Assembly: GCA_027382625.1 (NCBI GenBank)
Contig: JAJKFJ010022318.1
Coordinates: forward strand, 39,263-103,262
DNA: 64,000 nucleotides
From: Tetmemena sp. SeJ-2015
Lineage: Eukaryota; Ciliophora; Spirotrichea; Sporadotrichida; Oxytrichidae
Direction of reading: 5' to 3'
Shown: one piece after another, positions 34,052 through 63,090 of the stretch
Numbering within the stretch: the stretch's first letter is position 1
How the letters are laid out: every line of letters begins with the position of its first letter
Position numbers and translations under genes: made by a program
Notes under the pieces: generated by a model
Seen by the model: the letters and a program-made list of their open reading frames with translations, nothing else
Database searches by the model: none
Told to the model about the DNA's origin: nothing

Positions 34052-34339
34052 CTTCACATCTCAAATTTAAGAATTGCTTGTTAATAAGAATAATCTTAGA
34101 GATTTATGTCAAGTATTTGACCAGAAATGATTCAAATATGAGAAATAGAAACCTAAAATACCATAATTCAACGCAAATAAAAGGAGAAAGAGAACAAAAA
34201 TCCTGCTTATGTAGGAAAGATTTGCCAGATTTGGCTTATGGAGTGCGAAAAAGAGAGTGGGAGGGAATCCTTAGAAATTATGGTTAAGATTATTCATATA
34301 TATAAGCGAGTGATCAAAAGAGCTTCTCGTCCTTAATTA

Positions 34340-35600: not shown

Positions 35601-35997
35601 CATTTAAAACTAGATAACAATATAATTCTAATCAAATACATAACCATATACATACACATTAATATCTATTAAGTTTTTTTTTAGATTAGTCTTGTTGCAT
35701 TTTGTGAATCGATGTTTGAAATTTATTTGAGAGTGCTAGCACCCTGATATTATTACAAAAAATTAAACTATTATTAAATATTGCTGCCACTACTTATAAT
35801 TATCACCAGATGATCATCCCTAATAGAAGACAACCTCCCTAAATGGAGTTCAGCAAAAGTTATATCGCAAACATTATTAACATCAGAATCATCATACAAA
35901 CACACAAATAAGATATCCCTAGTTATTTTTAAACAGACTTTAGAAATACTTGAATTAAGGGAATTAATTTGCGGAAAAAGTCATTTCATGATTATGT

Positions 35998-38015: not shown

Positions 38016-38459
38016 TTTTACAGTAGTCTAAAGTTTAATTAATAAGGCAGAAATTTATGCTTTAAATTTATTCTACCCAAGTATTTAAGTGTTGGATTCA
38101 AATTGCATAAAAGTAAAATTAAAATATAGAAAGAGTATCAAGTCATTTTAGCATTTTATTTCACAAGATAAGATTGAAAATTATTATTTAAAACTAAAAA
38201 AATTTGACGTTTCTAATTGGATGTATTTAGTATGCTTTTATAAAAGATAATTAAAAAAAATAATTGAATAGACTTTTACTCTTTAACTAAAAATATTCAT
38301 AATAATTAAATTAAGGTACTCACCCATGTAATTTATCTTAAATTATTTCAATATCTTGTCTATAATAAAATATCAGCTAATTTTATAAAGTTGTGACAAT
38401 AAAATTAAAGAAGTTAAGTCAAAAACAAAAGCAAAACAAGCAATTAGTCCAACATTCTT
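38016..38459. other. AT-rich spacer between the EEP nuclease and MTA1 loci
   Basis: Upstream of the nuclease ATG and downstream of the MTA1 stop. No coding signal seen. Both somatic gene ends would be expected here. Confidence 0.45.
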
Positions 38460-41085: not shown

Positions 41086-41366
41086 CTAGTGACAAAATGC
41101 AGTTGAGTTTAGATCTAGTTTAGTCTTACAATTTATTGAAATTAAATTATATGATCTCCTATTTGCTTTAAATATGATGCATTAAATTGAGAGTAAGTAT
41201 CTATCTTTTATATTAATTAATTAAATAAAATAATTAATAATTATCTATAATTAGAACAGCAACTGCTGCAGTACTTTGACTCAAGAATTCTAAAGCCAAT
41301 TCACACTATTCAAATCAATTAAGATTAACCTAAATTCAATTAACAACCCTAAATCCACACATCCCT

Positions 41367-42791
41367 ATGGAGGAAAGTAATCTAAAGCTACGAAATACGA
41401 AAACACACCTTCAGCTTTTCTTTTACGAGGTGTTTACAACTGCTTTTTTGGTGATGGCGATAAACTTTTCCCTCTACAATAAGATTATAGTGTGTGGAGG
41501 GGTGTGGGTTTGCTGCATAGTAACTAACACCTTGACAGGAACTCACATGAATCTGGCTTTTTCACTGGCTGTCTACTTTTTCGAGGGCAAGTACAAGAAG
41601 AACTTCAAACCTCTAGTTAACTATGTGATAGCAGGGTTGGTTGGCGCTGCTCTTGGAACTGCTATCACTCACTGGATGCTGGGAAGAGAGTATGTTGTAA
41701 TTTTCAAGCCAGCTGTATACCAGTGGAATGTATTCTACATAGCTTTTGTTGAATTCTTCTTCACTCTTACATTTTTAGATGAATAATAAGTTTAAGAGAT
41801 ATAAATTTCTGTTGGTTGTGATGCATAACAAGACAGTGGGAGTTACGTTAATTAGTGATCTGATCTTGGGAGTGATGGGATCCATGATAGCACTCTACTT
41901 CTCTATCTGTTGCTCTGCATTATACAGTGGAGCTTGCTTGAGCCCTACTGTGGCGATAATCAATCACATCTATGTGCACATTGCATGGGATGATCCATCC
42001 CTGTATTCTCTATTGTATATACATTATATGTAGTTTAGGACAACTTAATTTACGTGTTCACTCCCTCCTATGTTATAGGACCAGCACTTGCAGGTATTTT
42101 AGCAGCTATCTTCTCCAAAAAGGTCTCTGCTAGATTTGCCCCACACCTGAGCTCTACCTCAACCCCTTGCTAGCTGCTGCTTCCTATCCTTCAAATATGT
42201 ATAGGTGCATATTTTCATTGAATACTTTTCTATCCCTACTACGGATATCTAGGATACGGGGCTTACTCACCTGCAACTGTTAACGGATCAGGGTAACTGG
42301 ATTCGATTGCAGCTTATGGAATACAAACTGAAATTAAAAACACCTAGGCACATCTTACAAATTCCACTAGCTTGCCAGTCTCACAGCACAGTACAGGTAT
42401 GCTATTGAGCTCTGATGGCTAAGATAATGGAAACTAGGAGTTACTTGAGAATTAACACTAGGAGATCTTAGTGACAGGAGTTACATATTTATATAATATA
42501 AATGGTATAATTAAACTAAAGGAGGCTTTTAGAGTGGCAGACCAAGTAAAGTTTTCATTGAGGTTTGAAACTAACGATTGCAGATTTAGCAAAGTAGTTT
42601 CAAATACAAATGTGTAAGCTAACAAGCCAAATTAAATTAACCTATCAAATTTATCAAAGAACGGGAGTTAAAAGATATATACTAACTAAGAGAGATTATC
42701 AGTTTCAAAATAAGTTTTAAATCAATCTAGCTTCATCAAGCCTTGTAGAATAGTAAAAGTAGAATTGATAAATAATGACCTCTCAATTTGA
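41367..42791 (+). CDS. unorthodox aquaporin (MIP family)
   Basis: ATG 41367. Hydrophobic helices typical of the MIP fold: FFYEVFTTAFLVMAINF, the first half-helix loop GTHMNLAFSLAVYF, then VNYVIAGLVGAALG, an IES at 41771-41804, LILGVMGSMIALYFSI, the second loop GACLSPTVAIINH and SYVIGPALAGILAAIF. A long polar C-terminal tail (Ser/Gln/Asn-rich) runs to TGA 42789-42791. The two pore boxes are NLA and SPT instead of NPA and NPA, so this is a non-classical aquaporin, comparable in spirit to the deviating superaquaporin group. At least one more IES or intron lies near 42000-42050, since the frame shifts before NLIYVFTPSYVIG. Expected in a membrane, e.g. contractile vacuole; substrate unknown. Confidence 0.75.
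41771..41804 (+). other. IES, 34 bp, pointer ATTT
   Basis: ATTT at 41771-41774 and 41805-41808. Removal joins FFFTLTF to LLVVMHNKTVGV in frame. Confidence 0.8.
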
Positions 42792-42839
42792 TATTCGTTT
42801 TAAATCACTTGAATAAACCACAAACTGCTTTCATTCAAC

Positions 42840-44478
42840 TCAAAGAGGGAGATTGCTGTGTCTTCTGCTTGGCTTGATTCTGTTCTTGCCCTCGAGCACT
42901 TTAAGATTGTCCAAGATGATGTTTCTAGTGTTCTCAGGAATCACGATATCATCCACATATCCGCGTTCTGCAGCCTTGAGTGGGTTAGCGAAAGCATGCT
43001 CGTACTTCTTAGTCTCCTCCTCAACGTTTTTGCCTCTGAAGATGATCTCAACTGCACCCTTAGCTCCCATGACTGCGATTTCAGCAGTGGGCCAGGCGTA
43101 GTTGTAATCTCCGTTAAGATGCTTGCTGCTCATGACATCATAGGCACCACCATAAGCCTTACGAGTGATGAAGTTAATCTTAGGGACGGTTGCCTCAGCA
43201 TAGGCGTAGAGTAGCTTAGCTCCATGCTTGATAATTCCTCCGAACTCTTGCACTGTTCCTGGGAGGAAGCCTGGCACATCAGTGAAGGTCACGAGTGGAA
43301 TCTGGAAAGCATCACAGAATCTCACAAAGCGAGCAGCCTTGGTTGAAGAATCGATATCTAGGCAACCTGCAAGCACTTGAGGTTGATTTGCAACAATACC
43401 GATAACTCTGCCTTCAACTTCTCCGAAGCCAACAAGAATGTTCTTTGCGTAGTCTGGCATAATCTCATAGAATTGGTTACGATCTAATATCGAGTCTACA
43501 ACAATCTTCATATCATAGGGCTTGTTAGGGTCGAAAGGTACGATATTGTTGAGAACCTTGCAAGAGGCTTAAGAGATGCGGTCGAATTGAGTCCATGGGC
43601 GGTGGGCTCTCTTCTCATGGCAGTTTTGAGGAAGATAGGTCATCAAATGGCGAGTGCTTGCAATAGCTTCAACGTCATTTTGGAAGGCTCTGTGAGCAAC
43701 ACCAGAGACGGAGGAGTGCATCTTAGCACCTCCAAGCTCTTCTTTGGTCACAGTTTCCTTAGTGACAGTCTTGACAACCTCTGGGCCTGTCACGAACATG
43801 TAGGAAGTATCTTACACCATGAAGGTAAAGTCAGTCAAAGCTGGAGAGTAGACTGCTCCTCCTGCGCAAGGTCCCATGATTAGGGAGAGCTGAGGCACAA
43901 CTCCTGAAGCATCAACATTACGCTGGAAGATCTCAGCATAGCCAGCTAGAGACTCCACTCCTTCTTGGATTCTTGCTCCACCTGAGTCGTTGAGACCGAT
44001 GCATGGGGCACCTGTCAGCACTGCCTTATCCATGATCTTGCAAATCTTCTCTGCGAAAGTCTCTGATAGTGAACCTCCGAAGACTGTGAAGTCTTGTGAG
44101 AAAGCATAGGTGAGTCTTCCATTGACTAGACCATGTCCAGTGACAACTCCATCTCCGAATATCTTCTCCTTCTCCATTCCGAAGTCATGGCACCTGTGGG
44201 TGACATACTTATCGTACTCCACGAATGATCCCTCATCGAACAAGAGATTAATGCGCTCTCTAGCAGTTAAACATTACATTATAACTTCACTCTAATCTTC
44301 TATTCGCTTCTAAGTTTAGCTTATTAGTGGCATGCTGCTTATCGATTCTCTTCTGACCACCTCCTAGAAGTGCCTCCTTTTGGATATTTTGGAAGCGCTG
44401 CTGGAACTGTGAGAACTCTCTTTGGTTCTTGTTGACAAGTGCCAACTGTGATCTGAGTCTCTGTTGGAACGCCTTCAT
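42840..44478 (-). CDS. PCCB: propionyl-CoA carboxylase beta chain (carboxyltransferase)
   Basis: ATG 44478-44476 ([20 protein letters not shown]), plausibly a mitochondrial presequence, then the family N-terminus [18 protein letters not shown] once the IES at 44267-44315 is removed. Carboxyltransferase landmarks: [143 protein letters not shown]. It ends at TGA 42842-42840 after the typical [11 protein letters not shown] end. TAA/TAG are used as Gln several times. It transfers the carboxyl group from biotin to propionyl-CoA in mitochondria (odd-chain fatty acid and branched amino acid breakdown), together with the biotin-carrying alpha chain. Full family length. A diverged second copy lies at 51.8-53.9 kb. 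Confidence 0.93.
44267..44315 (-). other. IES, 49 bp, pointer TAA
   Basis: TAA (TTA on +) at 44267-44269 and 44316-44318. Removal joins NKL to [10 protein letters not shown] and removes a TGA. Confidence 0.85.
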
Positions 44479-45129
44479 TTTAGTTTATTATGTATATCTA
44501 ACTAAGTGTTAATTGAATGACTAATTAAATAATCTTAACTTATATCTGGCTGTAGATTTATGTAGATATATTATCAAACCCCAGTAAACAGACCGCACAT
44601 ACACACACACTAAACCCTAATACTCTGGTCATAAAAAATACATAGAAAGTTAAAGGATCAGCATTAGCAAGCACTAATGTTATGTGAAAGAGATATAGGC
44701 AATTATATTATTTAGATGCTTGCTAGGTATTAAGAAAATACAGCTTTGCTGTATGAATATGAATCAAAGGAAAATAAAAGATTTGTGGTTATCTTTAAAT
44801 AAGAATGTTTGAATATAGAAGATCCACAACATCGACTGCCACACACACTCAAAATAACTATTTGTATCATCCTAGTAAGAGTAGGTTCACTCTTTTTGAA
44901 TCAAATATACACTTATCATTTAAGATTGCTTAAATCTAGATCACCTTTTTTAAAAAGGTTAAAGAAAATTTGAATATGAAAATTTAATATTCAAGTAGAC
45001 TTTAAAATTTTCTCAATATGCTTATCCAGTGTAAATAAATTTTTTCCAGTCTTCTTAGTTTCCTCAGCAGAAAGATAAATTATTAAATTTCTAATAAAGG
45101 AACTCTAGTCTGGATTCTGCAAATTAATC
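44479..45129. other. spacer between PCCB start and the eRF3 locus
   Basis: AT-rich, with a CA run near 44600. No supported coding segment; it must include the PCCB 5' end and any telomere-addition point. Confidence 0.4.
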
Positions 45130-46411
45130 TTGATTGCGTACTTACTCTTTAAAGTTCAAAATGAATTGGTAACCCTTGGAGAAAATAGGCTTGTACTTTA
45201 GAAGCTCAAGCTTGCTTTAAATAACACTTATAGCTCTGCCTCGAAAAGATCAGAGACGGGGACGAGGTCGGTAGATCTGCACAAAACATCTCCCTTGTTG
45301 ATGAGATTCATAAATCTAGTTAAGCGATGCTCAGAATTCTCAATTGGACGTTTTCACCAGGTTTGGCGTATACTTTAGAAACTTAAGTTTGAATAATTAA
45401 TTAAAGACCAATATTTTTATCTTTAATTTCTTTCTAATAGTTTACCTGACGCACTCGTTCTTGCTGTTATAGATTGTGCTAATCTGGGCAATCATGTTAG
45501 AGGGGAGCAACTGAAGTTGATCACCAAGCTTGACAGTCTTACTAACTCAACCTTTCCAAATACAACTGTACCTCTGTCCTTCATCTTATCGAGGATGGGA
45601 ATTCTCACGGGACCCTTATACCATACACAACTAAAGCTATAAGTCTGGATGGAAGCTCAAGATTGTCCAAGATTTCAAGGAGGGTAGGACAGTAAATGAA
45701 TGGATTTTATTTATAAAGTATGAGTAATCTGTTGCTTAAATATTGATCATAGCCAGTGTTATGGAGGAAAGGCTTGATCATGTAAATTCGAATTATAGAA
45801 ATTGACTTGTAATTTTTCCTTGCTCCATTTAACGCTAGGCTCGTCCATCATAATTAATTAAATAACTTAACTTATTGATTAGAAGTGAAGACCACAACTA
45901 GTTTGTAGATACCTAAACTCTTGGCGAGTTGAATATGCTCTCTGGTTTGGCCTTCCATTTCAAAACCTGCCTCGAATTCTCCCTTCTTAGCACTGATAAT
46001 CAAAGCCCCTACAATTTAACATTTATTCTCTCTCTAACATTAAATGGCTTATAGAAGTTCTCATGATCATGTTTGGTACGTAGTTCTTATGGCCTGGGGA
46101 TATAATAACAACATTTCTTAAAACTATAAAAAATACTTTTTTAAGATCTATATCAAGTACATCAAGTTGCCACTAATGGTTGACTTTGAATAGGTATTGC
46201 TGAATAAGTAGAGGTTGCTTTCTTGGATGCCTTGGCTGCTAATTAATTTAAAATTAAATAAATTCATTAGAATGAAATAGTGTATTGTTTTGAGCAACAG
46301 CGGTCTTCTTCTTAGGGGCAGAGAATATTAAAAAGGAAAATAGTATGTTGAAGGTAGTAGATGCGCTAGTTTCAGCAGCAACTGTTGTAGAAGCTGTAGA
46401 TAACTAGGTAG
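45130..46411 (-). other. eRF3 'even' MDS cluster
   Basis: Holds segments missing from the upstream group: STASTTVAAETSASTT (46.4 kb), KKKTAVAQ (46.3 kb), AKASKKATST (46.22 kb), STISGNLMYL (46.17 kb), HKNYVPNMIM (46.07 kb), SAKKGEFEAGFEMEGQTREH (45.96 kb), EPSVKWSKE (45.83 kb), KPFLHNTGYD (45.76 kb), LLEILDNLELP (45.67 kb), VRIPILDKMKDRGTVVFG (45.58 kb), GDQLQLLPSNMIAQIS (45.5 kb), AKPGENVQLRI (45.36 kb), KGDVLCRSTDLVPVSDLF (45.27 kb) and KPIFSKGYQFIL (45.18 kb). Each ends in a short repeat also found in the other clusters. Confidence 0.9.
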
Positions 46412-49400
46412 TATCTTATAACTAAAATAAGAGCAAAACCCTGAGAACTGCCAAAGACTTATCTCTGTCATGATATAAGAGAAGCATATTTGTGTCCTTT
46501 ACTTTTCAATATGGCCTATTTTATCTTTACTTACTATTAGAAAATACCCCAATTTTTTTGAATATTTATGAAATAACGTGAACACGATATAATATTTATT
46601 GCAACATCTCTATTGTTCGCACGCATGTTTGTAGTTTCTCGACTGCGAGAACTCTTCTGTCCATCTTACTACTAAAGTACTCTTTCACTTCGCTCAATCT
46701 TCCTTCACCTCCCTCACTCTCTAATCAGAATACTTAATAATTTTTAGAATGAAAGGAAAGTGTGTGGGGCAGGTCGAACGAGCGGTTGCGTGGGAATTCT
46801 TCGGTGGCGGGAAGAGGAGAGTGACGGCTGGAGATGACTATACACGGGCTTGGATGTGCAACTGATAGTTAGAGGGTTGAGCTAGAGTAATATCCTAGGG
46901 TTATTATAGTGGTGCTTATTAGTGGTGGGTTTCATAAATATATAGGTAGCATTTGATTAATTAATTAGTTAGAACTACTACCCCTCTCAACTCACTATCA
47001 GTTGGCATCTTCGCCCTCGTCCTCCTCGTCCTCATCCACGGCCTCCAAAGCTTCTTTCTCCTGATTTCTGCGACAACATTCATCATATATTCTCTCTTCC
47101 TTGGTAACAGTCTCGCCAGTTTCCATATCGTACACCAACTCCTCAGTCAATAAATAGTTACAAGCATTACTATTATTATTGATAGTGTATTTTTTGAACA
47201 GTCTTCTTTAAATGAAAAGCAGAAACGGTGCCTGCGATAGCTTGGCCTGCAACGGTGGTAGTTGCTTGAGCAGCAGGAGTGATATAGGCAGTGATCTTGG
47301 TTGGCTTGTATCTGAGAACCTTTCCGACAGCGATGGTTCTGCCCTCATCTCTCAATCTAATCAATATACTATACTACCCAATTGAGGCATCACTTCTGCC
47401 TTCTCCAGAGCAACGGGAACTCTAAACTTAAGAAGTTAATTCTGCAAATGACTCTTGCAAAGCTTTGAGCGAATTGAGCCTTGGCCTTCTCTATGAGTTC
47501 GCCCTTTTCAGTTCTCTCATGTACTAGAATCAGCTCCTTCACTGAAGCCTCCTCGGCAACAGTGTGCAAGTGCAAAATAAATTACTCATTTATTCCTTAT
47601 TCACACTTAAGAAGTTCAAGCAAGTCGAGCTCTGTCTCATTTTAATATTCTAACTACTACATTAATGCTTATAACTTTGATGAGATTTTCGTCAGCTATG
47701 TTCATTTGATATACGTATATCATGAAGTGAGAAGTTATATAGTGAGGGTAGGGCCTTGATACCAGTTGCAAAGTCTAAAATGCAACATTGCTCGTCCATC
47801 TTAAATTTATTAACTCAAGAATGTATAAATTTAATCTTGTTGACGACCACATAAAGAAAATTAATAGATTTCAAAAAGTCTGGGGCATCGAAAATAGTCC
47901 ATCTCTTATTAGAAGTTTCATTTGTTCCAAATCTTCGAGCCACCAAGACTCTCTGTTCTTTTCATTAATTTTTAAATCCTTATCTACAACTAATTGTTGA
48001 CTGTTATAATATAATACAGGGCTTTCTATTCACGCTGCTTCTTCTTCTCTAGACTTTTCTAGTATAATTTGTTAAATAGCAGTGGCATATTGCTCAAATT
48101 AAGTTTATCTTTTACTTTAGATAAATTTTAATTAGACGAATAGAGCCAGTCGAATTGCTTCTAATTCTAGCAAAAAAAAAATTTATTAATTAGAGCTTTC
48201 CAAAGCAGGGATCGTTTGATTTCTTACTAAAATAAAAATGACAATTGATAAAAACAGCATGCTATAATTATTTATGTAAGTATGATAAATGAAGTTTCAA
48301 TTGTAGCCTTGAGCCATGTTGAGACCATCCATTCAAGAGTTTTAAATTAAGAATGAGCTCCCATGGGTTGCTGGTAACCTAATATAATTATAAAGTAATA
48401 TACTGATTGATATAAAATAATTATTTCTGCGAGCGTACTCTTCCTTATTAAATTAAAATTGCTTAAAATCTCATCTCTCAAGGTGAATCTACCCAATTTA
48501 TATGCTTACTTACTTACCCTATTCATTATCTCAATTAATTGATCCTTATTTTAAAATAATTGTAAATATGAGCTTGACAGTACCTGACTCAACCTTCATG
48601 ATTATTGATTAGAGGACCCTCAGGATCTCTGGGTGGAATTTTATGTTTCATATATGCAATGACTTTTGTTGCAAAGTCCTGCTGGTATAGCTTCCTTGAG
48701 GTTAGTTCCATTAAGACCAGAGACAGGCACGAAAGTGATATCCTTTTCAGTGTCATAGCAATTAAAAAGATTATTAAAATTATAAGGCTTGAGACTTGTA
48801 ACGATCTCAGTGAATCTTTCCTTGCAGAATAGATTTATTAGAAAAGATCTTTTTTATCAAAGCTCCGAAATCTGCCATTGAAGCTCCCATAATCAGATAG
48901 ATCATTGGCCTGGGGCATCTTAATTAAGAAGGAGTTTCGATGTTAGCTCTTCCGACCTCAACAGTCTTTCCCTTTGCCTTTTCTTCTTCGTTCTCGTCCA
49001 TGACGTAAGCGAGCCACCAAGATCATTCATCAATTTAACTACTCTTTTTTCCTTGGCCTCTTGTTTATACTTTTGAATGGTTCTTTCGTCGACTGCTCCC
49101 ATCAAGTACATACTATGAATTTCTTGGAGCAACCATTATAAATTGAAGGTTGACTTTCCAGCATCAACGTGACCAATGAAAACCAAACTGCAGGGGGCCT
49201 TAGCCTCATCAACTTCAACAATAGGCTCATTGATAGTAGTAGATGTTGCTTATAAGTTAACTTGGCTGCCTCTTTTTGAAGCTTAAGAGCCTGGGCCTCG
49301 GCTGCTTTCTATTCTAGGGATTCAAACATCGTTCCCTTCATCCATAACATAACTTCTTCTCTGGGTCTTCCTAGATGACTTGAGGCTTGACGGGTGGAGC

Positions 49401-50662
49401 CTTGGGCTTCTTAATTGGCTTGCCTCCAAAGGTATATTCTTCCTCATCATCATCCTGCTATTTCTTATTTTGAACCTTGCCACGTCCTCCCATCTTGGGC
49501 TTTTGACTGTAGGCCTTATCGATTTCAGCCTGCTCCTTCAAATATTGAGCCTGCTGCTCGTTGTAAAAAGCAGTGGCTATTCTCTATACTATGGAATAAA
49601 GTGGAGTCGAATAGAGCATGCATGTTGGGTGCATATTCAGGGTAGTGGGTGAACAAGAACTTCTACTGATCATCGGAAACAATGCGAGGGTTGGTCAAGT
49701 CATCAGCTGGGAACATTGGGTTTGAAGCTGCGAGAGAGAAGAAAGCAGCAGACTTTCCAAAATATGCACACACACTCAAAGTATTGCTAATTCAATACTA
49801 AGAGAATACTTCTTAAGGTTATAAGTGAATTACAAGGCTATACTTTTATAATATCCCTAATTTGATTTCTTAGGTGCTGATTCTTCTTTCTTTTGAGCAA
49901 CTTGGATATCTGGATTTCACACTAAGATGAATTGTTTTTCTTAGGGGCAGAGTCAGCTGCCATGTCAAGGGTGGGGAAAGTCTCCTCGGTCTTAACGATT
50001 TTTTTCTTAGGAATGAAAGCACTAGCTCCAGTGTTGAAGTTAGAGCTATGAATTTTTATGCGAAAACTAGGTAGTGGCTTGAGCGGGCACTCCAACAGCA
50101 GCAGATGCATTTGGTACTGTGCTCAGACTCATGTTACCCATCTGATGATTCACATTGTAGCTTTTAAACAAGTTGAGACCAGCAGCAGGGTATTAGTTTG
50201 CGTAGCCTCCTTGCATTTGCTAATACTGCTGCATCAAAAATTGCGCATTTTGGTCGTAGAATGGCTGAGCATTTTGATCATAGGTTGGCATCATTCCGTA
50301 GCCCTGATTTGCTCCCATTTAGTAGCCCTGAGCTCCTTTAATTTCCTGGCTGGTAACCACCTTGGTAGTACTGCTGCTGCTGGTATTAGGCGGCATTGGG
50401 ATCCTGGTAGTAGCCTGCACCTTACACATTGAACTGTGCTCCTCCCATCTGCACCTAACCATTTGCGTGAACTTGCTATTGCTGAGCGCCAGTGTTGGCT
50501 TGAGCTTGACCGCCGAGGGCTGGGAACTCAAACTTAATACAAATGAGTAGCTTTTTTAGAAACATCATTTCAAGTTTATTACCATTGTTGAGGTTAGCAG
50601 AACCCTGAATAGGAAATTAGGATGAAGATAAAGAAGACTTATCCGTAGTTTTGATTGTACAT
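45130..50662 (-). CDS. SUP35: eRF3 (GSPT/Sup35-type) translation termination GTPase, scrambled germline gene
   Basis: ATG 50662-50660 (MYNQNYG) opens a Gln/Asn/Tyr/Gly-rich, Sup35-like N-domain (e.g. YYQDPNAAQYQQQQYYQGG), then a PAM2-like motif (FNTGASAFIPKKK) for poly(A)-binding protein. The GTPase core is recognisable: GHVDAGKST, the switch region with RESWWLAYVMDENEEEKAKG, DAPGHKNYVPNM, SAKKGEFEAGFEMEGQTREH, NKMDEPSVKW, SGLNGTNLKEA, GPVRIPILDKMKDRGTVVFG, MPQLGRLRDEGRTIAVGKV, and an acidic tail ending TGA 47000-46998. No physical reading frame gives this order: the segments lie in four groups (50662-48550, 47950-47610, 47578-46998, 46411-45130) and interleave through shared pointers. eRF3 helps eRF1 end translation; here UGA appears to be the only stop. 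Confidence 0.92.
46412..46997. other. spacer inside the eRF3 locus
   Basis: Non-coding as far as I can see, between the even cluster and the acidic C-terminus. A GC-richer patch near 46640-46860 has no convincing frame. Confidence 0.35.
46998..47578 (-). other. eRF3 3'-terminal MDSs
   Basis: Encodes the end of the protein: HLHTVAEEASVKELILVHER, EKAKAQFAQSFARVICR, VPVALEKAEVMPQLG, RDEGRTIAVGKVLRYKPTK and the acidic tail to TGA. It joins physically downstream but logically upstream DNA: pointer ATTTTG at 47573-47578 matches the one at 45157-45162. Two very short inserts (17-20 bp; pointers TAG at 47357/47374 and AGA near 47.43 kb) also have to go. Confidence 0.85.
47610..47970 (-). other. eRF3 middle micro-MDS cluster
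   Basis: Carries small pieces needed between the odd and even clusters: KNRESWWL (47.94-47.97 kb), NETSNKRWTIFDAP (47.88-47.92 kb), VVVNK (47.83-47.85 kb), a 13-bp piece KMDE (47790-47802), CNWYQGPT (47.74-47.78 kb), ADENLIN (47.68-47.70 kb) and ELDLLELLK (47.61-47.63 kb). Confidence 0.85.
48550..50662 (-). other. eRF3 'odd' MDS cluster
   Basis: 5' group in physical and coding order: prion-like N-domain, PAM2-like region, linker, G1 loop, MGAVDERTIQKYKQEAKEK, AYVMDENEEEKAKGKTVEVG, a 14-bp micro-MDS (48906-48919), GASMADFGAL, RFTEIVTSLKP, TEKDITFVPVSGLNGTNLKE, RDPEGP and ESGTVKL pieces down to about 48571. Short non-coding spacers lie between them where even or middle MDSs belong. Confidence 0.85.
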
Positions 50663-51829: not shown

Positions 51830-53860
51830 TATTGGTTACTTTCTCTTCTTTGGCTCTAAATCTATAATTTTCTCTAAGATGATTCTTCTAGTGTTTTCAG
51901 GAAGTCCCATCTCTCCCTCTTAATTTATTCTTTAGAATGGTATTGCATTTATTCCATAATTTTAATGATTATTCATGAGAATACTTTGAGGTTGCATAGA
52001 TGAGATTTCAGATATGGACCAGCCATAATTGAAGTCTCCGTTTATATATATATGCTTGTCAAGATGCTACAAGCTCCATCATAACCATTACGAGTTATGA
52101 TGTTAATTTTTGGAGTTTTTGCTTTTGCGTAAGCTTTGAGCAACTTAGCTCTAGAGTTTATAATTCCTCCAAATTCTTGCTCTGATTATATAAGAAAGCC
52201 TGGCACATCAGTGAAGGTCACAAGTGGAATCTGGAAAGCATCACAGAATCTCACAAAGCGAGCAGCCTTGGTTGAAGAATCGATATCTAGGCAACCTGCA
52301 AGCACTTGAGGTTGATTTGCAACAATACCGATAACTCTGCCTTCAACTTCTCCGAAGCCAACAAGAATGTTCTTTGCGTAGTCTGGCATAATTTCATAGA
52401 ATTGGTTGCGATCTAATATCGAGTCTACAACAATCTTCATGTCATAGGGCTTGTTAGGGTCGAAAGGTACAATATTGTTGAGAACCTTGCAAGATGCTTA
52501 AGAGGCGCGGTCGAATTGAGTCCATGGGCGGTGGGCTCTCTTCTCATGGCAGTTTTGAGGAAGATAGGTCATCAAATGGCGAGTGCTTGCAATAGCTTCA
52601 ACGTCATTTTGGAAGGCTCTGTGAGCAACACCAGAGACGGAGGAGTGCATCTTAGCACCTCCAAGCTCCTCTTATTGCAAATTTTCTTTAGCAAAAGTCC
52701 ACTCATCCTAGGGACCAATCAAATTAATGGAGGAGGGATCTTTTACCATTATGGCTAAAATATGATTAGATTATTGATAAAATAATTGCCCAAGGATCTG
52801 AGGTTAAAGTCCTCTTTATCACTTATATTATTTTACTTATCTTTGTCTTATATTTTTTCCTCTCCACTTTAATTTAGTTTTTGAATGCTCTAAATTCTTT
52901 CAAAAGTTCTTGATCTCTGTTTTACTTTAGATTATTCCCTTCAATATATCTTGAAGTTAATAATGCATTAAAGCCGCACTTAATTACACTAGTTGAAATT
53001 TAAGAGCATCTTATATTCGCCTATTTTTATGTACTAGACTCATTTTGTGAATTTACAACGCTTAAAATCGGTTTGGAAAAGTTCAACAAAGTCATTCATT
53101 TCAACTTAAAGGACAGAATAATTTTAAAATTTATCCACTTTTTAAAGAAAATAAACTCTAACCATATATAAAAAATAAGATAATAAACAAAATGATTTAC
53201 TGATAACATTGTTTGAGAGAAATTTAAAACAGAAAAATTAGTGGCGATGGAGGTGCTAAAGAATTCCGTTCTCTTCCACTTCAAATTTATAATTTTAAAT
53301 TGAAGAATGATAATAATTATTCTGACTAAATATATATCGGTAGAAGCTCTATTCATGTTTTAAAGAAAAATTATTACTTTTTACCTCTATTTTCTAATCT
53401 TATTTGAGTCATATTGTAAAATCCGTCTATGCTGATGATTGGATCACTCCATTTGAGCAGCGTCCCATGAGTAGAGAGATTTAAGGTATATATCCTGAAG
53501 CCGCTATATTCCCCTAGCAGATTTTAGCATAGCCAGTTTGAGACTCATGATCTTCTTCAATACTGGAACTAACCTAATCGTAAATACCAATACATGGAGC
53601 TTTTGCCCTTGCAGCCTAGCCAATAATTTTGCAAATTTTCTTTGATTAAGAATTAGAAAGTTCACCTCTAAAGCCTGTAAGGTCTTGCGAGAAAGCAAAT
53701 GCGAGTACTCCATTAACTTTACCACTTCCAGCAACAATCCTCAGATCAATATTTTCTCCATTGAAGTAATTGTCAATCTAACTATCAATTTCATTAAATG
53801 TTCCCTCGTCGAATAGGAGATCTATTCGCTCTTTTGCTGTTAAAATAAAAAAGAAAATTC
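51830..53860 (-). pseudogene. diverged PCCB paralog, probably inactive
   Basis: Read in the ciliate code, the minus strand follows PCCB from AKERIDLLFDEGTF (53.83 kb) through LAFAFSQDLTGFRGEL and LLMGRCSNGVIQSSAQTDF, MVKDPSSINLIGP, then the near-identical block 52198-52668, and on through EFGGIINSRAKLLKAYAKAK to about 52.0 kb. TAA/TAG are tolerated as Gln and long stretches remain open. Key motifs are lost, however: GGARIQEG is replaced by QVSSSIEED and [12 protein letters not shown] by GRCSNGVIQSSA. The N-terminal presequence region and C-terminus are barely recognisable. A decaying gene or a pseudoenzyme; part of the tandem duplication. Confidence 0.8.
52198..52668 (-). repeat. near-identical tract shared with PCCB (43269-43739)
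   Basis: Gap-free alignment at a constant offset of 8929 bp, with 8 differences by eye in about 471 bp (about 98%). Flanks on both sides drop abruptly to much lower identity. Six of the eight differences are synonymous in the PCCB frame; the other two fall in one codon (Ile to Ala). Confidence 0.9.
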
Positions 53861-54379
53861 GATATAAATAATATCTTCCCTATATGTTTAACTTAGACGC
53901 AAGCTTATAATTGATTGTTCTCTAGAAATGTCTTATTTGTGGTTCCCTTTGTATAAATGGTAAGTACTGCTGTAACTATTCGATCTCAATTTTGCGAATT
54001 TTTTCAAAAGATTATCTCCTTGCAGATAAGAACTTTAGAACTTGCATTTAAATATATTTATAAAATTTTCTATTTCATGTTTGTTATTGTAGTGAAGATG
54101 ACTAGTTTATCTGTTAGATTAATAACCCCTTAAAAATCAAAATAATATAAGAAAGTTAGAATAAGATTTGTATTATTATTTTTCTTGTTTTATAAAGTGA
54201 CTATAACATCTGTTTCGTAAAATGATATCTTTACACCTCCAAGTGCTTCCTTTATCTTAGGTAACTAAATTTAAGGTTTAACAGGGTTCTTGATTATTAC
54301 TAGCTAGCTATATAATATCAGGTTTTAATACCTTGCCTATCATATGTTACTTTTTGCAAATTATATTCCTTAATCAGTC

Positions 54380-55350
54380 TCTACTTAAACATTTTAAATT
54401 TTCCATTTCGGTTTCATATCGTATTGAAGTCTGATTGCAATTTGTACTGAACTGTCTAGTCAATAGTGGCTAATAAAGACCTCCCTGCATAACTGGTCTG
54501 ACATATTCACTGTTTCAGGCATCGAATCTATTTGATCCTTGGTCAGAGGATACTTCTCTGATTAAGGAGTACTACCGGGATACCTTATAAGTTTAAGAAC
54601 TGAGGAAGCTTGTATTTAAGTTTTTATGATAAAATCCATCGTTAAATTAAATAAAAAAAGCATTTTATATTAAATCGGAGATATAAAATAGATTGGAATA
54701 AACCTATTTTAATTTATAAAGCGAAGTATTTTCTTTATCTTAAATTAAATTAATTTTAAAAAGTAAAATAAGTATTAAAAAAAAAATGTTATAAAATAGA
54801 ACTACGAGAGGAAGACGAAATAGAAGATGTAGTAGCTTAGTCTTTTCGGAGCAAAATAAAGTAATAAATAATATAGTGGACTGGCATCGAAAAGTCATTA
54901 AGAGCATGAAAGATGAAGCACAGGGTGGACACTACAAGAACTTGACAAAATTCATTTATGGTTGCCTTTTTTTTTGCCTTTTTAAAAAACCCCTGAATTG
55001 GACCAGAGACTGAATTTGTGATCTCAATTACAAAGCCACTAAGCCATCAAGAATGGGACCCAAGATTGACAAAAAACTATAGCCTACTGTGAGTAAAGAT
55101 TCAAACGGCAGAAATTCCTAGTCATTGCTAAATGAAATGAGTGGAGACTCCTGAGTCCTCTTGAGAGTATAATCTGTTGAGCCTCCCTGACCAATAGTGG
55201 AAATTGATTGAGAAAACTAATGATGTATCCGAATGGAGACTTGCCATAAGGAGCTATCAACTCTAGTGGGGAAACTTTGGGATATCAAAAAGTCAATCCA
55301 ATACGAATAAAATGAATATAATTCCTAATCTCTAATCATCATCTCTGGGT
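54380..55350 (+). CDS. inserted MDS-like fragments of an unrelated plus-strand gene
   Basis: GC-richer blocks absent from the original locus. Plus-strand ciliate-code segments: DPWSEDTSLIKEYYRDTLQV (54.53-54.6 kb), VDWHRKVIKSMKDEAQGGHY (54.88-54.97 kb), NYKATKPSRMGPKIDKK then SKDSNGRNSQSLLNEMSGDS (55.02-55.15 kb) and EYNLLSLPDQQWKLIEKTND with SEWRLAIRSYQLQWGNFG (55.16-55.28 kb). The frame changes between blocks as if IESs or introns intervene. No family recognised. A minus-strand frame is also open over part of this, but the plus segments look more protein-like. Confidence 0.45.
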
Positions 55351-55479
55351 ACTATTTAATTATGTTTTGAGATTAATCCTGAAATTTTCATAATGAAATT
55401 GAACGTTGACTATTGTTTTTTGTTCACTCCATTAAAATTAGAATTAATCACTCCCAACTTATTCCAACTCTCCTTTCAT

Positions 55480-57860
55480 ATTATTTTAGGGGTATTGATT
55501 CCTTCTTGCTTTTTTCGATTGTTCTAATCTAAGCAATCATGTCTAAAGGTAGCTACTTGAGTAAATCTTTAAGCTTGACAATCCTAATCCTATTTTACTC
55601 ATCGTTTTCATAATCCTATATAAAGTTATTACTTTATCTTTCATCTTTTCGAGCCCAGAAACTTATGTTGAAATTTAATAATTTGTCTAGATTGATTCTC
55701 AAGATCTTTCAAAATTTCCAGAAGGGTAGGAAATTAATTTATTATACTTCAGAATTCAATTAACGAAAGTGGGAATGAATAAAATATCATGAACGAGAAA
55801 ATCGTTAAAAAATAATTTGATATATTTATAGTGTAAATTATCATATTAAAAACAATTAAATTTGCATTTAAAAGCTAATAATGATGAAAAATCAGTATTA
55901 AATACATTTTTCATTTTTTCTTATGCAGTTTATTGAATTTAAAATATTCAGAATTTATATGCTTCTTATGGATGAAATTAATGGGAACTAAATTGGATAA
56001 ATACCGGAGAATTGAAATTGCTATTTCCAAAATTTTACTTGGTGCCCAAGTTTGTTTACTTATAATGAGGTGGGGTGGTAACTTTATCATGTGAATTTGC
56101 TTTTTTACATTAAATTTTGAGATTTTAATTCATACTAATCTTCTTGATCTAATTTTTTGTGTTAAATGAATATGCTTCAAGCTTAATTTTAATTTTAAAA
56201 AAGGAAATTTGAATAATAAAATTTTAGAAATGAGAATACCAAATTTTCACTCAACACTTATTTTATGAAGAATTATTTATGAATTTCTTTTAAATTTTAT
56301 AGTATAATATTGTTGGAAAAATGTGATAAGTCTCAAATTTATAACCCATAGCCAACTTTTGTTAGAGAAGACTTGATTGATAATTAATTATCATTATCTT
56401 ATTTTTCCTGGCTCCATTTAACGCTATGATCGTCCATTTATAAACATGACTTTTATTTTTTAATTTTGAGACCACAATTAACTTTTAAATACCTACCTGC
56501 TTAGCTAGTTTAATAAGTTCTTTAGTTTGGCGTTTAATTTCAAAACCAACCTCGTAATCTCCCTTCTTAGCACTAACAATCAAATCATCCAATCATTTTA
56601 ACTTTTTTACCTTAAATTAAAGGCTATTTGAAACTCTCATATCAATTACTGGGTGCTTAAACTTGTGGCCTGTTCATAATGATTATTATCAATTAAAGGA
56701 ATAATTTTTAAAAAATTAGTATAAATAAATTAATATTTTGCAGTTAATTATTTGGCCAGCCCGACTCTTATTTAAATATATAAAAACTAAAATCATATTG
56801 TAACAGATTAAAGTTTAAAATAAAAGTATGCCAACTTGACAACAAGTAGATAGAAAGTTGTATAAGGGAAGGTTTGTTAGAAAATGAATCCATCTTATTT
56901 TATAGTAGCGACTTAATCCAACTGATTCTCAAACATATATTTTTTTTTATATCTAAATCCATAGCCCCTCTAACTGCTCCTGTCTTGGAGCAAAATTTTG
57001 TAGCAGGATATATTCATTTAAATGCTGGAGACATATCCAGATGTAATTTTCAAATCCAGCTGAGGCCTCCCTCGCCAGCTTTCTCAAAGTTTTCGCTTTA
57101 TCCTTCTCCTTCTAGCAACCCATTACTTAATATTTTTACTATCAGCTCTGTGGCAGCCCTTCAAAATAAAATAACTCTCATGTGCTCACCTCAGCCGGTC
57201 CTCCGTGTTATTCAAACTACCCGATTCTTGAGAGATCTCAAACAATTTTGTAAAAAAATTAAATTAGAAGGAGGCAGGGAAAATCTCAGAGGCATATGCT
57301 TATAGGAGATAGAGAAGGCTATCTGTTTGAGAAGCAGTTAAATGAAGTCAACACCGTAAAATAATCAGGAATTATTTTCTGATAGTCTTCTCTCTAACTC
57401 CGCTTTCTATTTTATCGCAGTCTTGAGGAATTTTATTTTAAGTTTTAAACATTGGCATTAAAATTCTTTGACTTCAAGCTTTACTTATTTAATTAAGGCA
57501 GAGGGTCTATAGCACACTGCAACAATTAAATTAATTTATTTTTAATTTTACAAAATTAATTCTAATTTTGTAATAAACATCACAAATACGTAATCGAAAT
57601 AAAACAAAGTGCATTATCTTGGCACTGATGGTTGACTTTTATTGGATATTTTTAATTAAATTATTTTACTTACAGACTCCTTATCCTCCATATAATAAAT
57701 ATATGATTTGAATTATTAAATTAATAATCTCTTATAAAATATCTTTTGAGCAACAATAGTCTTCTTAGGGGCAGAGAATATAGATAAAAGACAAATTCAA
57801 TGTTGAAGTGAGTTGACAAAATATTGATATCGCAGGCGTAGTTAAATAGGACATAATTTA
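55480..57860 (-). pseudogene. decayed copy of the eRF3 even cluster
   Basis: Base-level similarity, in the same order and strand, to 45.4-46.42 kb: the block around 55.51-55.66 kb matches 45.46-45.6 kb, 56.41-56.6 kb matches 45.82-46.01 kb, 57.62-57.65 kb matches 46.17-46.2 kb, and 57.75-57.79 kb matches 46.29-46.33 kb, including the 14-bp pointer TTCTTAGGGGCAGA at 57762-57775. Many substitutions and indels; several pointers are eroded and the protein segments are broken. About 0.9 kb (56.7-57.6 kb) is inserted relative to the original. Confidence 0.75.
56860..57310. other. GC-richer insert of unknown origin inside the decayed eRF3 copy
   Basis: Not present at the corresponding place in the first copy. 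The plus strand is open for over 200 ciliate codons (from about 56.83 kb), with a Pro/Ser-rich stretch near 57.06-57.13 kb. Pieces of the minus strand (e.g. NIKQWVARRRRIKRK) also look protein-like, so strand and nature are undecided. Confidence 0.35.
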
Positions 57861-58759
57861 TAAGCCAAATATATTTAAAATTTTCCCCTGAGAACTGGGT
57901 AAGACTTATTGAATTAATAAATAGTTTAGTTATCATCTTCTCTCAACAATATAAATTTCAATATTTGAAAAGTTAGTATTAGTTGAAATAAAAAAAAATT
58001 ATCATTTTCACTATTTAGATAATTGTTTTGATGAATTTATAATTAATCGATATAACTTATAAAATTACTTATTAAGGAAGGATCCTTTTCTATTAAAATC
58101 CTTTAAAGCAGATATTTAATGATAGTTTATAATGCTTGATAAATCTAACATAGGTATCGTTTAGGATTTTAAACAAAAAATTATAAGAGCGTTTTTTTAT
58201 ACATTTTATAAAAAATATTTTTTATGCATTCTAATGCTAATTTAAATGAATGCTTTAAATATATCAAATGAAAGATAAAAATAAAATAAATATTTTAAAT
58301 GGGCTTTCATCTTTACTACGCCCTTTTAAGGTTATTTTCACCATTTTGTAAGAATCCCTAAGTTTTTGTACTGGAGCCGAAATATAAAATGAGATTTTCG
58401 AGCCACATTATCAATTTTAAGCTCAATATATTTAGGACTTCTTCACTTACAATTTTATTAGTGTTAATTCAGTTTGCTGTAATCATTAATTCTCTCTAAA
58501 AATAACAGATAAAACTAATTAAAAGAATAAAATTCATGTGCGCAAATTCATTAAAAAATAATTTTTGAGTAAGTCATTTAAATCAAATATAGAAGATATA
58601 AGGCACAGAAATAGGCTTAAAAAATATTACCATTAGTTGAGCATTACCAAAAATTATTTTAAGAAATGAGTTTAAGTGTGAATAATTAGGATTTATTAGT
58701 ATTTATAATCAAACGAATAAAATACGAAATATTCAAAAATAACTAAACATCCTATCTCA
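57861..58759. other. AT-rich spacer
   Basis: Very AT-rich, no supported gene segment. It corresponds in position to the spacer inside the first eRF3 locus. Confidence 0.4.
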
Positions 58760-61700
58760 GTTTCATTTTGACTCTAAAGTATGGATGTAGGCGCCCTTAT
58801 CAGTAGTAATAGCCAGTTCACAATTTATTAGCCTTTCTCTTTTAGAATTCTCATAATTTACACTCCTTAATCTCCTTACACTCCTTAATCTCCTTAATTG
58901 AAGTTTCATCAGCTTCATTCTGCAAATTAAATTTTTATAACATTAAATTAAACTTTATAAACATTAGAAGTTGAAAGCAAATAAAAAAATGACTGCTTTT
59001 TCCATCTCTCTCTACATCTATATCTTTATAGATAATATATGAATTGATGAGCAAGAACCATAAATAGAATTTATAATAACTGAACAATAGGATAGAATTT
59101 AATTGAGAATTTCAATAATTTAAAATAATTGATAAAAAGCAACAAATTAAAACTAAAATGAGAATTCTTAAGTTTTGAGATTCACTAAGAGAGAACTCAA
59201 TGCAAAGCCTTGTTCATAATTTGTGAAAAATCTGCAAATTAAAATTGGAATAATAGTTCTTTGACACATTCTTTAATTTTTAGCCTATCAGATTGCCATG
59301 TTACATAATAATAGCGCAATATATTTAGCAATTTGTATATTGCAAGTATTTATTTATAAAGAACTCAACTGACAACAAACTACATTCTGAATACACTATT
59401 AGCATAATTCAAATTTACCTTTTCATTTTTATTCCTTATATTTAGAAACGTGCAGTATTCTTCTGATATTTTGATTACGATTTATGTTTCTTAACTCTAC
59501 AGTTTTAGTAGCAAAAATAATATTTTTAAAAATATTTGATACTTTTTATAAATCTGCATTCACATTATTCTAATTTTTATGAGAGGTAGGGCCTTGATAC
59601 CAGTTGCAAAGTCCTTATAAAACAAAATGCAAAGTGTGAATTGATCGTCCATCTTAAATTTAAATATAGCAGAGAATCTAATAGAAATTAGTCAGTCCTA
59701 AAAAAACGATTATAATAACCCCAAAGCCTTTATTAATTATTACTCTTCTTTAAAACTGCTTATTTTTACTATTACTGTAATTACGATTTGATTATGGAGT
59801 TCTTACAGTTATGCTTACGGATTGGACCTTTCGTATTTCCACCACCTCGGCAGTAGTCAGTTCTATCAATCCATGTCTTTATCAGTTCCCTTTTAAATTC
59901 CCAGGTTCAATTTAACTTCAGGATGATTTATGAAATTCGGATATCTTTTCGAAGGAATAAGATATTGCGTTGGACTTATCGGATTATTTCTTAATTGCTT
60001 AATTTATTTAAATTTATGATATTTTTGGATTAAAAGTCAATTCATATTTATTTTAATTCCCGACCGTTGCCTGTTGGCCATCCGGACTCCTCCAGCCACC
60101 TTCTTCAACCCTTTATTTTATACTCCTTACCTCCGTTTTCCCTTTAATTACTCTACTATAATAGTAATGATATTATTTGCTCTTGTTGAGGACCACATAT
60201 ATGGACATAATTTTTTTAAAATTAATTCTGTATCATCAAAAATGGCTAAGCCTTTTGTGGGAGTTTTATATAACTTATTTCCTATATGTTGAGACATCAA
60301 GACCAGTTATTCTTTTACTTTTATTCTTAATAATTTATATTTAATATCAACTCTTTTTTAAAAAATAAAGAATCTTTATTGCTTAATGCTTTCTTTTCAA
60401 TCACTCTCTTTTTCTCGTGCATTTTTAATTTAATTTCCATAAACCAAAAAGCAGTGGCGTATTCCTCAAATAAATATTATATTAATAAAAGTGGATTAAT
60501 TTTTTTAAAGAATAAAGCCAGTCGAATAAGTTATATTTGCTATTTAACTTTTATCAAAATTATGATAAATGAATGAATGAACGCTTTCCAAAGCAGGGAT
60601 CGCCTGATTTTTAATATAAATAAAATATTTAGGAATAATAATCAAGTAAAACTATTAAAGGGCTGAATTTTATTAAGTGTCAACTTTCCATCTAAGTTAG
60701 AAATTATTTTATTCTTAATGAATTGTATTTCTAAATAAAAATAAAAGATGTTACATTAAATCCTAAAAAGAACTTTTATCTTTCAATTTTATTAGGGGGC
60801 TTATCTCAAAACAAAGAGAAATTTTATGATAGCACATTTATAGCACTATAAATGAGAAGTGTTAAAGATAAAATTCAAGAATGCACTTATAATTAAATGT
60901 AATTGACAATCTCACTTGTTACAAGTTACAAGATTGAAAGGGAGATATTAAATTACCAATTAACTACCATGAATCTCAACCGATCTATTATTTTAGATTT
61001 AAAATTAATTATTACCTGTAATAGAATATAAAATTAATTGTAGCTAGGATTAACGCCAAGACCATCCCAAAATTTACTAGCTTATTTAATTATTGAGCTC
61101 CCGTTGGAGGCTGGTAACAAGAATTTTAATAGAACTAATTATATTAGGTTTTTTTTTTTAAAAAAAACTTAGTTATCATAAATTATATTATTAATTACTA
61201 TGCCTACTTATTTTAATAAATATTTTATCTTTATTGGAAAATATTTTTAAGCTTGACAGAATGTGAATCAGTCTAGGGATTCTGCATTTGCGGATCTTCG
61301 CAATCTCTAGATTGAATTGAAATAATTCTAAAATTAAGAATTTAAACGGAGTATGTAGTACCCCCGCAATGGTATGGAGCAATCGCTTAATTAAAATAGC
61401 TATATCAGTGAAGCATTTGTCAACTCATGGCGTCAAAAATGACTGTGACTTAAAACTTCCATCATTACAGGAATCCGTAGACTTGAACTAATTAATATCC
61501 TCACTAGCAAGCTCTTTGAGCTCGTTGACTCTGATTGGACAAGGCTAAGCCAAAAAGACTCTAAGGTTATTGGTTAGTCTTTGACTCCTGGTAGGGCTAC
61601 TGCTTTTTGCAGTGTGAGGTGACACCTTCTAATTGTGTTGCCTGAAAACTTATCCTCCTGAAAAGATGCTAAATCAATACTAAAAATTCCTTTGCTTCTT

Positions 61701-63090
61701 CCTTCAGAGTTCTGTTTGCAATTAAAACACGATCATTACTTTTTGTAAACCCTTCTTGCCAAATAGAAGGAGATAATTAATATACAGTCATAAGATCCAA
61801 CTGGAGAGTATTTTTTTTCTCTCGCATTACTAAAAAAAGATCATCATAATCTACTCACCACCCTACAATTAAATACTCATAATTATTCATCACTTGATTG
61901 ATTACTAGTCTCTGCTAAGATAAAAAAGATTTCGAAGAGTGAAAATCTATAGTTCAAAGTCTTCTTTTAGCGCACGTCATGGAGCTTATATATTAATTTA
62001 ATAATAATATAATTTAAAATTAAATATTGTTGCAAAGTCCAGCTGGCATAGCATACTATATATTCTTTCCATTAAGTGCAGATACTGGCACGAAAGTAAT
62101 ATCTCTCTCAATAGAGCATAGAATCAAATTAAAATTGGGTAATTATTAAAATGAAAAGTAAGGCATCGTAAATTATTTGCAGCTAAAATGGCTCAAAATT
62201 CTTCATATCTGCATATTGTTAGATAGTTAATCATAGATAATATTATTTTTTTTCTTTGATCAACTCATCATCTGTTTCACTCAAAGAAAATATGGGCCAA
62301 GCACAGTATTAAATTCTTACTTTAATTAATATTTACCATTGAGTATCTAAAAAATCTGAGATTAGCTAAAATCCTCATGTTAAAAATTAAACAGCACTTA
62401 AAAATTGATTCTAATAAATAGTTTTAAAATTATTAAATTAAAAAAATTCTACTATCACCTTTTTATTACATTTTAATTAAACTTATATTGCAATTCTGAT
62501 TTCTATTCAAGCTTAGAAATAACATAGCCAACTCGAGCATAATAAAAATTATAAAAGACTTGAGAGATTTGATTATTGTATTGTATCTTTCCTTGAAGTG
62601 TGAAAATTATTGGGGGAGCACATATCTTTACATCTCCTAAAAATCATTAGATTTCAACTCTTTCAGACCTATTTTTCAATGAATAGCACGAAAAAATGGA
62701 TTATTGAATTAAATTCAATCCCTTTATGTCAAATTAGGATTTCTTTTAACCAAAATTTGCGATAATAAATCTAAAATTTTCATTTCTATATTATATATAA
62801 TAAGAATTTTAATTAAAATCGGTGATTGGTTAAAATAATAAATGGAGAGTTGCAACTTCGTGTCAGTTGAAATCGTAGATTCACCCCTTGATCTGTAGCT
62901 TGTTCGATAACTTATCAACAAATAATATGAGTTTCTTCTTTAATCATCTTTATAGCACCTCTCAGCAGCGAGATATGTCGCACGCACTCTTTATCACTCT
63001 CTTCATTTTCGTCATTGAAACTTGTGTCGCTTATAACTCTTGACTGAGCACTCCCATTCAAAAGTTGCAAGGATGAAAAGTTCTTAGAAT
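58760..63090 (-). pseudogene. decayed copy of the eRF3 middle/odd clusters, running towards the window end
   Basis: Same order as 47.5-49.1 kb: 59.58-59.66 kb matches 47.74-47.81 kb, 60.45-60.6 kb matches 48.07-48.21 kb (both contain CTTTCCAAAGCAGGGATCG), 61.1 kb matches 48.37 kb, and 62.03-62.13 kb matches 48.66-48.76 kb. The 11-bp pointer GTTGCAAAGTC is still present at both expected places (59603-59613 and 62029-62039). Most other segments are heavily diverged or lost. The remaining N-terminal part would lie beyond 64 kb. Confidence 0.7.

Follow-up and report, generated by a model that had tools for sequence, protein, structure and literature searches.

A germline eRF3 gene of Tetmemena sp. 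predicted to be joined from 53 pieces in four interleaved runs

The translation-termination factor eRF3 is essential and universally needed. In the window analysed here, a stretch of 64,000 nucleotides from the spirotrich ciliate Tetmemena sp. SeJ-2015 (contig JAJKFJ010022318.1, positions 39,263 to 103,262, part of a 146-Mb assembly of 5213 contigs), the eRF3 gene almost certainly lies in 53 pieces arranged in four interleaved runs, the predicted germline form of a spirotrich-type ciliate, likely to be joined at short repeats. Joined in this way, 53 macronuclear-destined segments (MDSs) on the minus strand of 45099-50662, with 52 junctions and one copy of the repeat, or pointer, kept at each, make up a single eRF3 frame with 951 sense codons. 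This product comes from in silico joining of the predicted germline DNA, and its somatic (macronuclear) joining is a prediction. Read with TAA and TAG as glutamine and TGA as stop, the frame contains 14 in-frame TAA/TAG codons and closes at a single terminal TGA. Within its 2.86 kb of coding sequence, 47 of the 52 junctions connect segments that are not neighbours in the germline; the other five (junctions 1, 13, 29, 40 and 50) are ordinary non-scrambled ones with pointers of 2-5 bp. Scrambled genes as a kind are already well known, and this is a genuine, dense, multi-run scrambled eRF3 gene. An earlier report of a scrambled eRF3 was sought in a limited literature search, partly of incomplete texts, and none was found.

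An earlier note, made from the letters of the window, had described eRF3 segments out of order in four groups on one strand of 45130-50662 and had taken them for a scrambled germline gene with interleaved MDS clusters. The runs, the repeats and the open frame support this description. The four groups correspond to runs A, D, B and C in germline order (18, 2, 18 and 15 segments; Table 1), each strictly in gene order. The upper end of the interval stands, while the lower one is slightly short, with MDS 47 lying below 45130. All nine repeat pairs that had been listed are exact and coincide with junctions of the reconstructed gene, although the total of 25 pairs was too low: there are 52 junctions, and at 43 of them the repeat is exact and at least 6 bp long. 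The alternation of odd and even MDSs, which the note regarded as the hallmark of such genes, is present in stretches; overall, three long runs (A, B and C) are woven together with a two-piece fourth (D), so the arrangement is not a two-cluster odd-even pattern and is indeed more complex than a two-cluster fold. The gaps between pieces have a median of 27.5 bp. In our own implementation, in which loops are removed, the pointer word reduces to nothing after removal of loops and repeat words. Full reduction to nested repeat words sets the map apart from the irreducible (tangled-cord) class and thus places it in the common class described for Oxytricha, in which 96% of the scrambled genes are reducible in this manner (PMC5940158, available in part). 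A candidate inverted copy of the 3′ end of the gene near 46859 was rejected, as it scored 24 against up to 27 in shuffles.

The pointers average 8.5 bp over the 52 junctions and reach at least 8 bp in 35, lengths that are inflated because the repeats helped to choose the junctions; when the same ends are mispaired as a control, the mean is 1.4 bp and 0.08% reach at least 6 bp. Scrambled junctions have longer pointers than non-scrambled ones (means of 9.0 bp, n=47, and 3.8 bp, n=5). Since the map was built with the repeats, a second search, blind to them, was run on the conserved part, in which joins were made by protein similarity alone at a flat cost per jump. Of its 33 joins, 16 fall on repeats no shorter than 6 bp, and all 16 belong to the 23 long-range joins (300 bp or more), among which a repeat of at least 4 bp is found at 19. 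A 6-bp repeat is absent from all ten short-range joins, one of which corresponds to the TA junction of the map; the remaining ones mostly fall at places where a short segment was overlooked by the search. By comparison, 20 column-shuffled profiles gave repeats of at least 6 bp at 10 of 1357 joins, with scores of at most 399 vs 1917 for the locus. On the plus strand, 1 of 68 joins had such a repeat (score 286); the figures are 0 of 68 for a different part of the window (score 361) and 5 of 60 for the duplicate region at 53801-64000, described below (score 606).

The joined product aligns with eRF3-like proteins of relatives: P0001 (935 aa, whose number we take to be that of an Oxytricha entry), over residues 1-931 at 60.5% identity, P0002 (residues 308-930, 86.3%) and P0003 (residues 341-892, 84.1%). 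Domains PF00009, PF03144, PF03143 and PF22594 are above their cut-offs. A first hand-joined core of 448 residues matched solved eRF3 at E=6e-126, vs 2e-90 for the best HBS1, and the six best solved chains for this rough core are eRF3. Judged by these similarities, the predicted product is eRF3, closer to eRF3 than to EF1A or HBS1. Elsewhere in the assembly, contig C3322 carries a row of four elongation-factor-like GTPase matches at 30.8-40.3 kb.

Table 1. Runs (in germline order), MDSs of the reconstructed eRF3 gene and parts of the downstream duplicate, in window positions. The pointer given is the one that enters the MDS, unless stated otherwise.
Feature	Positions	Strand	Remarks
Run A	48571..50662	-	18 MDSs: 1,2,4,6,8,10,12,15,17,19,21,23,25,27,32,34,37,39
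Run D	48423..48498	-	MDS 49 (48498-48470, RFTLRDE), MDS 52 (48446-48423, YARRN)
Run B	46998..48379	-	18 MDSs: 3,5,11,13,14,16,22,24,29,30,35,42,44,46,48,50,51,53; TGA stop 47000-46998
Run C	45099..46411	-	15 MDSs: 7,9,18,20,26,28,31,33,36,38,40,41,43,45,47
MDS 1	50639..50662	-	start codon predicted; linked to MDS 2 by TAA, non-scrambled, by eye, less certain
MDS 2	50349..50619	-	TAA
MDS 3	48354..48379	-	GGTTACCAGC, by eye
MDS 4	50172..50336	-	GGAGCTCA
MDS 5	48300..48326	-	TGGTCTCAAC, by eye
MDS 6	50065..50161	-	GCTACAAT, by eye
MDS 7	46346..46411	-	ACTACCTAGTT, by eye, listed in the earlier note
MDS 8	49938..50039	-	CTTCAACA
MDS 9	46288..46322	-	CTCTGCCCCTAAGAA, by eye, listed in the earlier note
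MDS 10	49861..49901	-	GTTGCTCAAAA, by eye, listed in the earlier note
MDS 11	48196..48226	-	TAAGAAATCAAA
MDS 12	49605..49761	-	TTTGGAAAG
MDS 13	48128..48155	-	ATTCGACT
MDS 14	48078..48102	-	TTAA, non-scrambled, by eye
MDS 15	49353..49577	-	GCCACTGCT, by eye
MDS 16	48021..48050	-	AGAGAAGAAG
MDS 17	49261..49314	-	GAATAGAAAGC
MDS 18	46214..46239	-	GCAGCCAAG
MDS 19	49148..49251	-	AAGCAAC; P-loop GHVDAGKS
MDS 20	46152..46187	-	AAAGTCAACC
MDS 21	49047..49111	-	ATGTACTTGAT
MDS 22	47936..47963	-	GAAAA
MDS 23	48933..49022	-	TCTTGGTGGCTCG
MDS 24	47880..47919	-	GAAACT
MDS 25	48906..48919	-	overlapping pointers GATGCCCCAG and CCCCAGGCCA, by eye
MDS 26	46066..46099	-	CCCCAGGCCA from MDS 25, or CCCCAG from MDS 24
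MDS 27	48856..48895	-	TGAT
MDS 28	45890..46006	-	GCTTTGAT
MDS 29	47834..47851	-	TGTGGTC
MDS 30	47790..47802	-	AAGAT, non-scrambled
MDS 31	45815..45849	-	GATGGACGAGC
MDS 32	48784..48825	-	GCAAGGAAA
MDS 33	45747..45777	-	TCAAGCCTT
MDS 34	48668..48759	-	GCTATGA
MDS 35	47744..47775	-	GACTTTGCAAC
MDS 36	45644..45688	-	CCTACCCTC
MDS 37	48614..48632	-	CCAGA; automatic search took adjoining match TTCCA, same place
MDS 38	45545..45616	-	AGGGTCC
MDS 39	48571..48596	-	AAGGTTGAGT
MDS 40	45443..45537	-	ACTGTCAAGCT
MDS 41	45331..45370	-	TA, non-scrambled
MDS 42	47677..47704	-	TGA, short; join rests on homology
MDS 43	45232..45308	-	AATCTCATCAA
MDS 44	47616..47634	-	CAGAGCT
MDS 45	45157..45211	-	GCTTGA
MDS 46	47439..47578	-	ATTTTG
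MDS 47	45099..45124	-	ATTTGCAGAAT; outside the interval of the earlier note
MDS 48	47374..47424	-	TAGAGTTCC
MDS 49	48470..48498	-	AATTGGGTAG
MDS 50	47199..47355	-	TTGAGAGATGAG
MDS 51	47094..47148	-	GACTG, non-scrambled, by eye
MDS 52	48423..48446	-	AAGGAAGAG
MDS 53	46998..47073	-	TCGCAGAAAT; ends at TGA stop
C′	55493..57816	-	duplicate; BLAST-alignable parts of MDSs 7,9,20,28,31,36,40; weaker traces of 26, 33
B′	59580..60625	-	duplicate; alignable parts of MDSs 11,13,14,30,35
A′	62027..62594	-	duplicate; part of run A towards the 3′ end of the gene: MDS 34, with MDS 32 as a weaker trace

The working gene would likely be built as the somatic nucleus develops, by joining these pieces at their matching repeats. 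Judging from hypotrich ciliates, one pointer copy would be kept at each junction while the gaps and the second copy are removed, parental RNA templates would guide the joining, and telomeres would be added to a small eRF3 chromosome. In the assembly, the telomere pattern has 21 matches on 3 contigs, vs 28 for its reversed control, and a scan of viral contigs for the nanochromosome of a relative gave 13 pattern matches with 0 confirmed. At least one contig (L001) looks bacterial by composition, so the assembly is probably derived from mixed cells.

The gene map was completed by combining a profile path, based on nine homologous proteins and the end repeats, with placement by eye, in which exact repeats and an open frame were verified for each junction. 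A nearly complete and checkable scrambling map of eRF3 is thereby obtained. Several observations weigh against it, or against the reading as a scrambled gene that is joined. Joining is inferred because an own-genome search of the assembly, in which 49 candidates were scored and 38 matches obtained, revealed no colinear eRF3. Four scrambled junctions have repeats of 3-5 bp (TGA, TGAT, GAAAA and CCAGA). In the repeat-blind search, seven of the 23 long joins are without a 6-bp repeat; four of these coincide with junctions of the map whose repeats are short (GAAAA, TGAT, TTCCA and TGA), and three are misplaced when compared with the map, one omitting MDS 14 and two using the letters RFT of run A rather than those of run D. 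The automatic path through the whole gene makes 73 jumps, of which 39 coincide with junctions of the map as finally drawn; the remaining 13 of the 52 junctions (1, 2, 4, 5, 6, 8, 9, 13, 14, 24, 25, 36 and 50) differ between the two. Junction 36 differs in the choice between two adjoining repeats, and the other twelve were placed by eye because the path is noisy or departs from the map there. Its 34 jumps outside the final map are mostly noise in the glutamine-rich N-terminus; the other departures occur at MDSs 13-14, inside MDS 15, at MDS 25, at junction 36 and between MDSs 50 and 51. MDS 25, of 14 bp, consists solely of two overlapping pointers with no base of its own, and may be an unused relic, since both automatic searches bypass it and link MDS 24 to MDS 26 via CCCCAG with an identical product; there would then be 52 segments and 51 junctions. 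An additional internal eliminated sequence (IES) of 42 bp may lie within MDS 2, between TAA 50578-50576 and TAA 50536-50534. This candidate (50578-50534) is TAA-bounded, in frame and open, and the residues that it encodes seem to be missing from P0001.

It is important to consider whether the order of the pieces could be false, the product of an assembly error in which reads of an intact gene were mis-joined. Two contigs that are apparently haplotypes of the window, to judge from their similarity, do stop near the locus: C3945 opposite window position 46680 and C269 opposite 44119. C269 (12000-22422) corresponds to window 33707-44119 with 93.7% identity in the first 10 kb and 100% over the last 423 bases; C3945 corresponds to window 39584-46680 with 97.5% identity in 7121 columns. 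In the latter, run C has its pieces in the same order, and the order A-B-C recurs in the diverged copy of the gene downstream, which makes a misassembly unlikely; moreover, such an error would not create exact repeats shared by pieces that follow one another in the protein, at the end of the first and the start of the second. This explanation is hardly credible. Against run C (45099-46411), C3945 shows 3 substitutions in 790 MDS bases, and 3 in 523 IES bases together with three indels. One of the substitutions falls in pointer 42, for which C3945 covers a single copy of that haplotype's pointer.

The locus might, on the other hand, be a dead gene, a shuffled eRF3 pseudogene whose pieces are never put together, with the working protein supplied from elsewhere. 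No in-species product has been seen, and a degenerate eRF3 copy lies nearby, both of which would suit a pseudogene. Its joined frame is nevertheless open over all its sense codons, the conserved part is 84-86% identical to two relatives (P0002 and P0003), and the MDS bases of run C show few differences from C3945. The own-genome matches outside this contig and C3945 are pieces of 28-52% identity, which by that identity alone are taken for EF1A/HBS1-like or bacterial genes. Thus, a dead gene is very improbable. Equally, an ordinary intron-containing gene accompanied by decayed tandem partial copies could look scrambled if eRF3 copies stood side by side, and local duplication and decay are in fact thought to give rise to scrambling (PMC9797194, available in part). 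In this locus the runs are complementary: consecutive pieces share the pointer only, and each run lacks the content of the others. Nor do the IESs show a mean excess of similarity to the MDSs they stand in for (z 0.05). Tandem copies as the whole explanation are scarcely to be believed, and a scrambled gene joined at its repeats is the preferred reading.

A second, partial eRF3 locus (A′, B′ and C′ in Table 1) is found downstream in the same orientation, with the run order A-B-C and several IES positions shared. The duplication thus probably followed the scrambling. The contig ends at window position 64000, and part of A′ may lie beyond it. Eight BLAST-aligned stretches cover at least 12 bases of 13 of the 53 MDSs. 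In these alignable stretches, from which the following contrasts solely come, MDS identity is 82.9% (469/566) vs 74.6% (176/236) for IESs (p=0.008), and third codon positions have diverged more than first and second ones (p=0.0006). The ratio of nonsynonymous to synonymous divergence (dN/dS) is 0.43 over 171 aligned codons with 0 stops, which agrees with constraint on one branch and near neutrality on the other, and is also compatible with weak constraint on the duplicate. The alignment of MDS 26′ has one 1-base and one 2-base indel, and the stretch of MDSs 41-47 aligns weakly. MDS 35 has a 31-base perfect match, by our estimate weak evidence, as such a match is not rare among 53 pieces at 83% identity. 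The duplicate (55.5-62.6 kb) looks as if it is decaying. That it is a second working eRF3 was considered less likely, given the 13 alignable pieces and the indels of MDS 26′; the absence of stops in the aligned codons favours it, and the dN/dS does not decide. The scrambled eRF3 adjoins a carboxyl transferase gene at 42843-44474 (minus strand, one open frame, PF01039 at E=6e-183), of which a shortened duplicate at 51976-52818 (minus strand) accompanies the degenerate eRF3, with 86% identity over 43074-43829/52001-52759. Inverted repeats of 71-76% identity are found at 4733-5122/62803-63216 and 62630-62818/63667-63848.

For seven pointer pairs of the duplicate (13 and 30-35), both copies can be aligned. 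In pair 34 neither copy has changed; pairs 13, 31, 33 and 35 have lost the full match, with an inserted base on the B′ side of 35. In pairs 30 and 32 the same substitution is present at both copies, as was confirmed by reading the sequence. Pointer 30 has changed from GATGGACGAGC to a form ending in GACGATC at 59653-59643 and 56437-56428, 3.2 kb apart, with the match lost at the first base of the acceptor copy; pointer 32 has changed from TCAAGCCTT to TCAAGTCTT at 62563-62555 and 56376-56368, 6.2 kb apart. Proteins P0001-P0003 carry the main-locus amino acids at both pointers, hence the duplicate is the changed locus. The chance of two shared changes among three substituted donor-side pointers is about 0.01-0.02, a figure from a tiny sample, calculated post hoc and of use as a lead only. 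That distant pointer copies evolve in concert, as may be suggested by the gain of the same base at both copies of pointers 30 and 32, is a tentative and rather doubtful idea.

The duplication-decay model of scrambling is reportedly that of Gao et al. from 2015. In 31 simple cases of the eRF3 locus, where one MDS stands for one IES, the length of the MDS correlates with that of the IES it replaces (rho 0.39, p 0.032), and no similarity between IES and replaced MDS was found on average in the 25 testable of these 31 pairs (mean z 0.05, range -1.5 to 3.0). The model has been tested in PMC9797194, the available part of which gives a weak positive length correlation for Oxytricha and Tetmemena, as is also observed here. 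The lack of average sequence similarity differs from the model and is what would be expected for an old event. Duplication and decay are therefore not demonstrated as the origin of this locus, a result that, as far as comparison of sequences goes, agrees with the same source on older scrambled loci.

Among the known systems, the odd-even genes of Oxytricha trifallax and Tetmemena share with eRF3 the permuted MDSs with pointer repeats, as well as the trend towards longer pointers at scrambled than at non-scrambled junctions (PMC9797194, in part), whereas eRF3 has three main runs and a small fourth instead of two and, with 60% identity to P0001, is apparently that of a different species. According to the same partial source, 13.6% of Tetmemena genes (3371 genes) are scrambled, and the records for scrambled junctions are 204 in Tetmemena and 195 in Oxytricha, in genes of 14.7 and 13.7 kb. 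In Oxytricha, a 77-kb tandem duplication gave a pair of paralogous chromosomes whose chord diagrams are identical (PMC5940158, in part). A scrambled locus copied nearby with its layout kept is thus common to both cases; the difference is that one of the eRF3 copies looks degenerate.

The presence of an intact scrambled locus together with a degenerate duplicate of the same layout lets scrambling and duplication be ordered in time, and the decay of pointers and pieces can be followed between the paired loci. If the concerted change of pointers were true, then either the duplicate was still descrambled, under selection for pointer match, before its decay, or the copies of a pointer pair were converted onto one another in the germline. 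It would then provide a testable statement on how scrambled loci remain assemblable.

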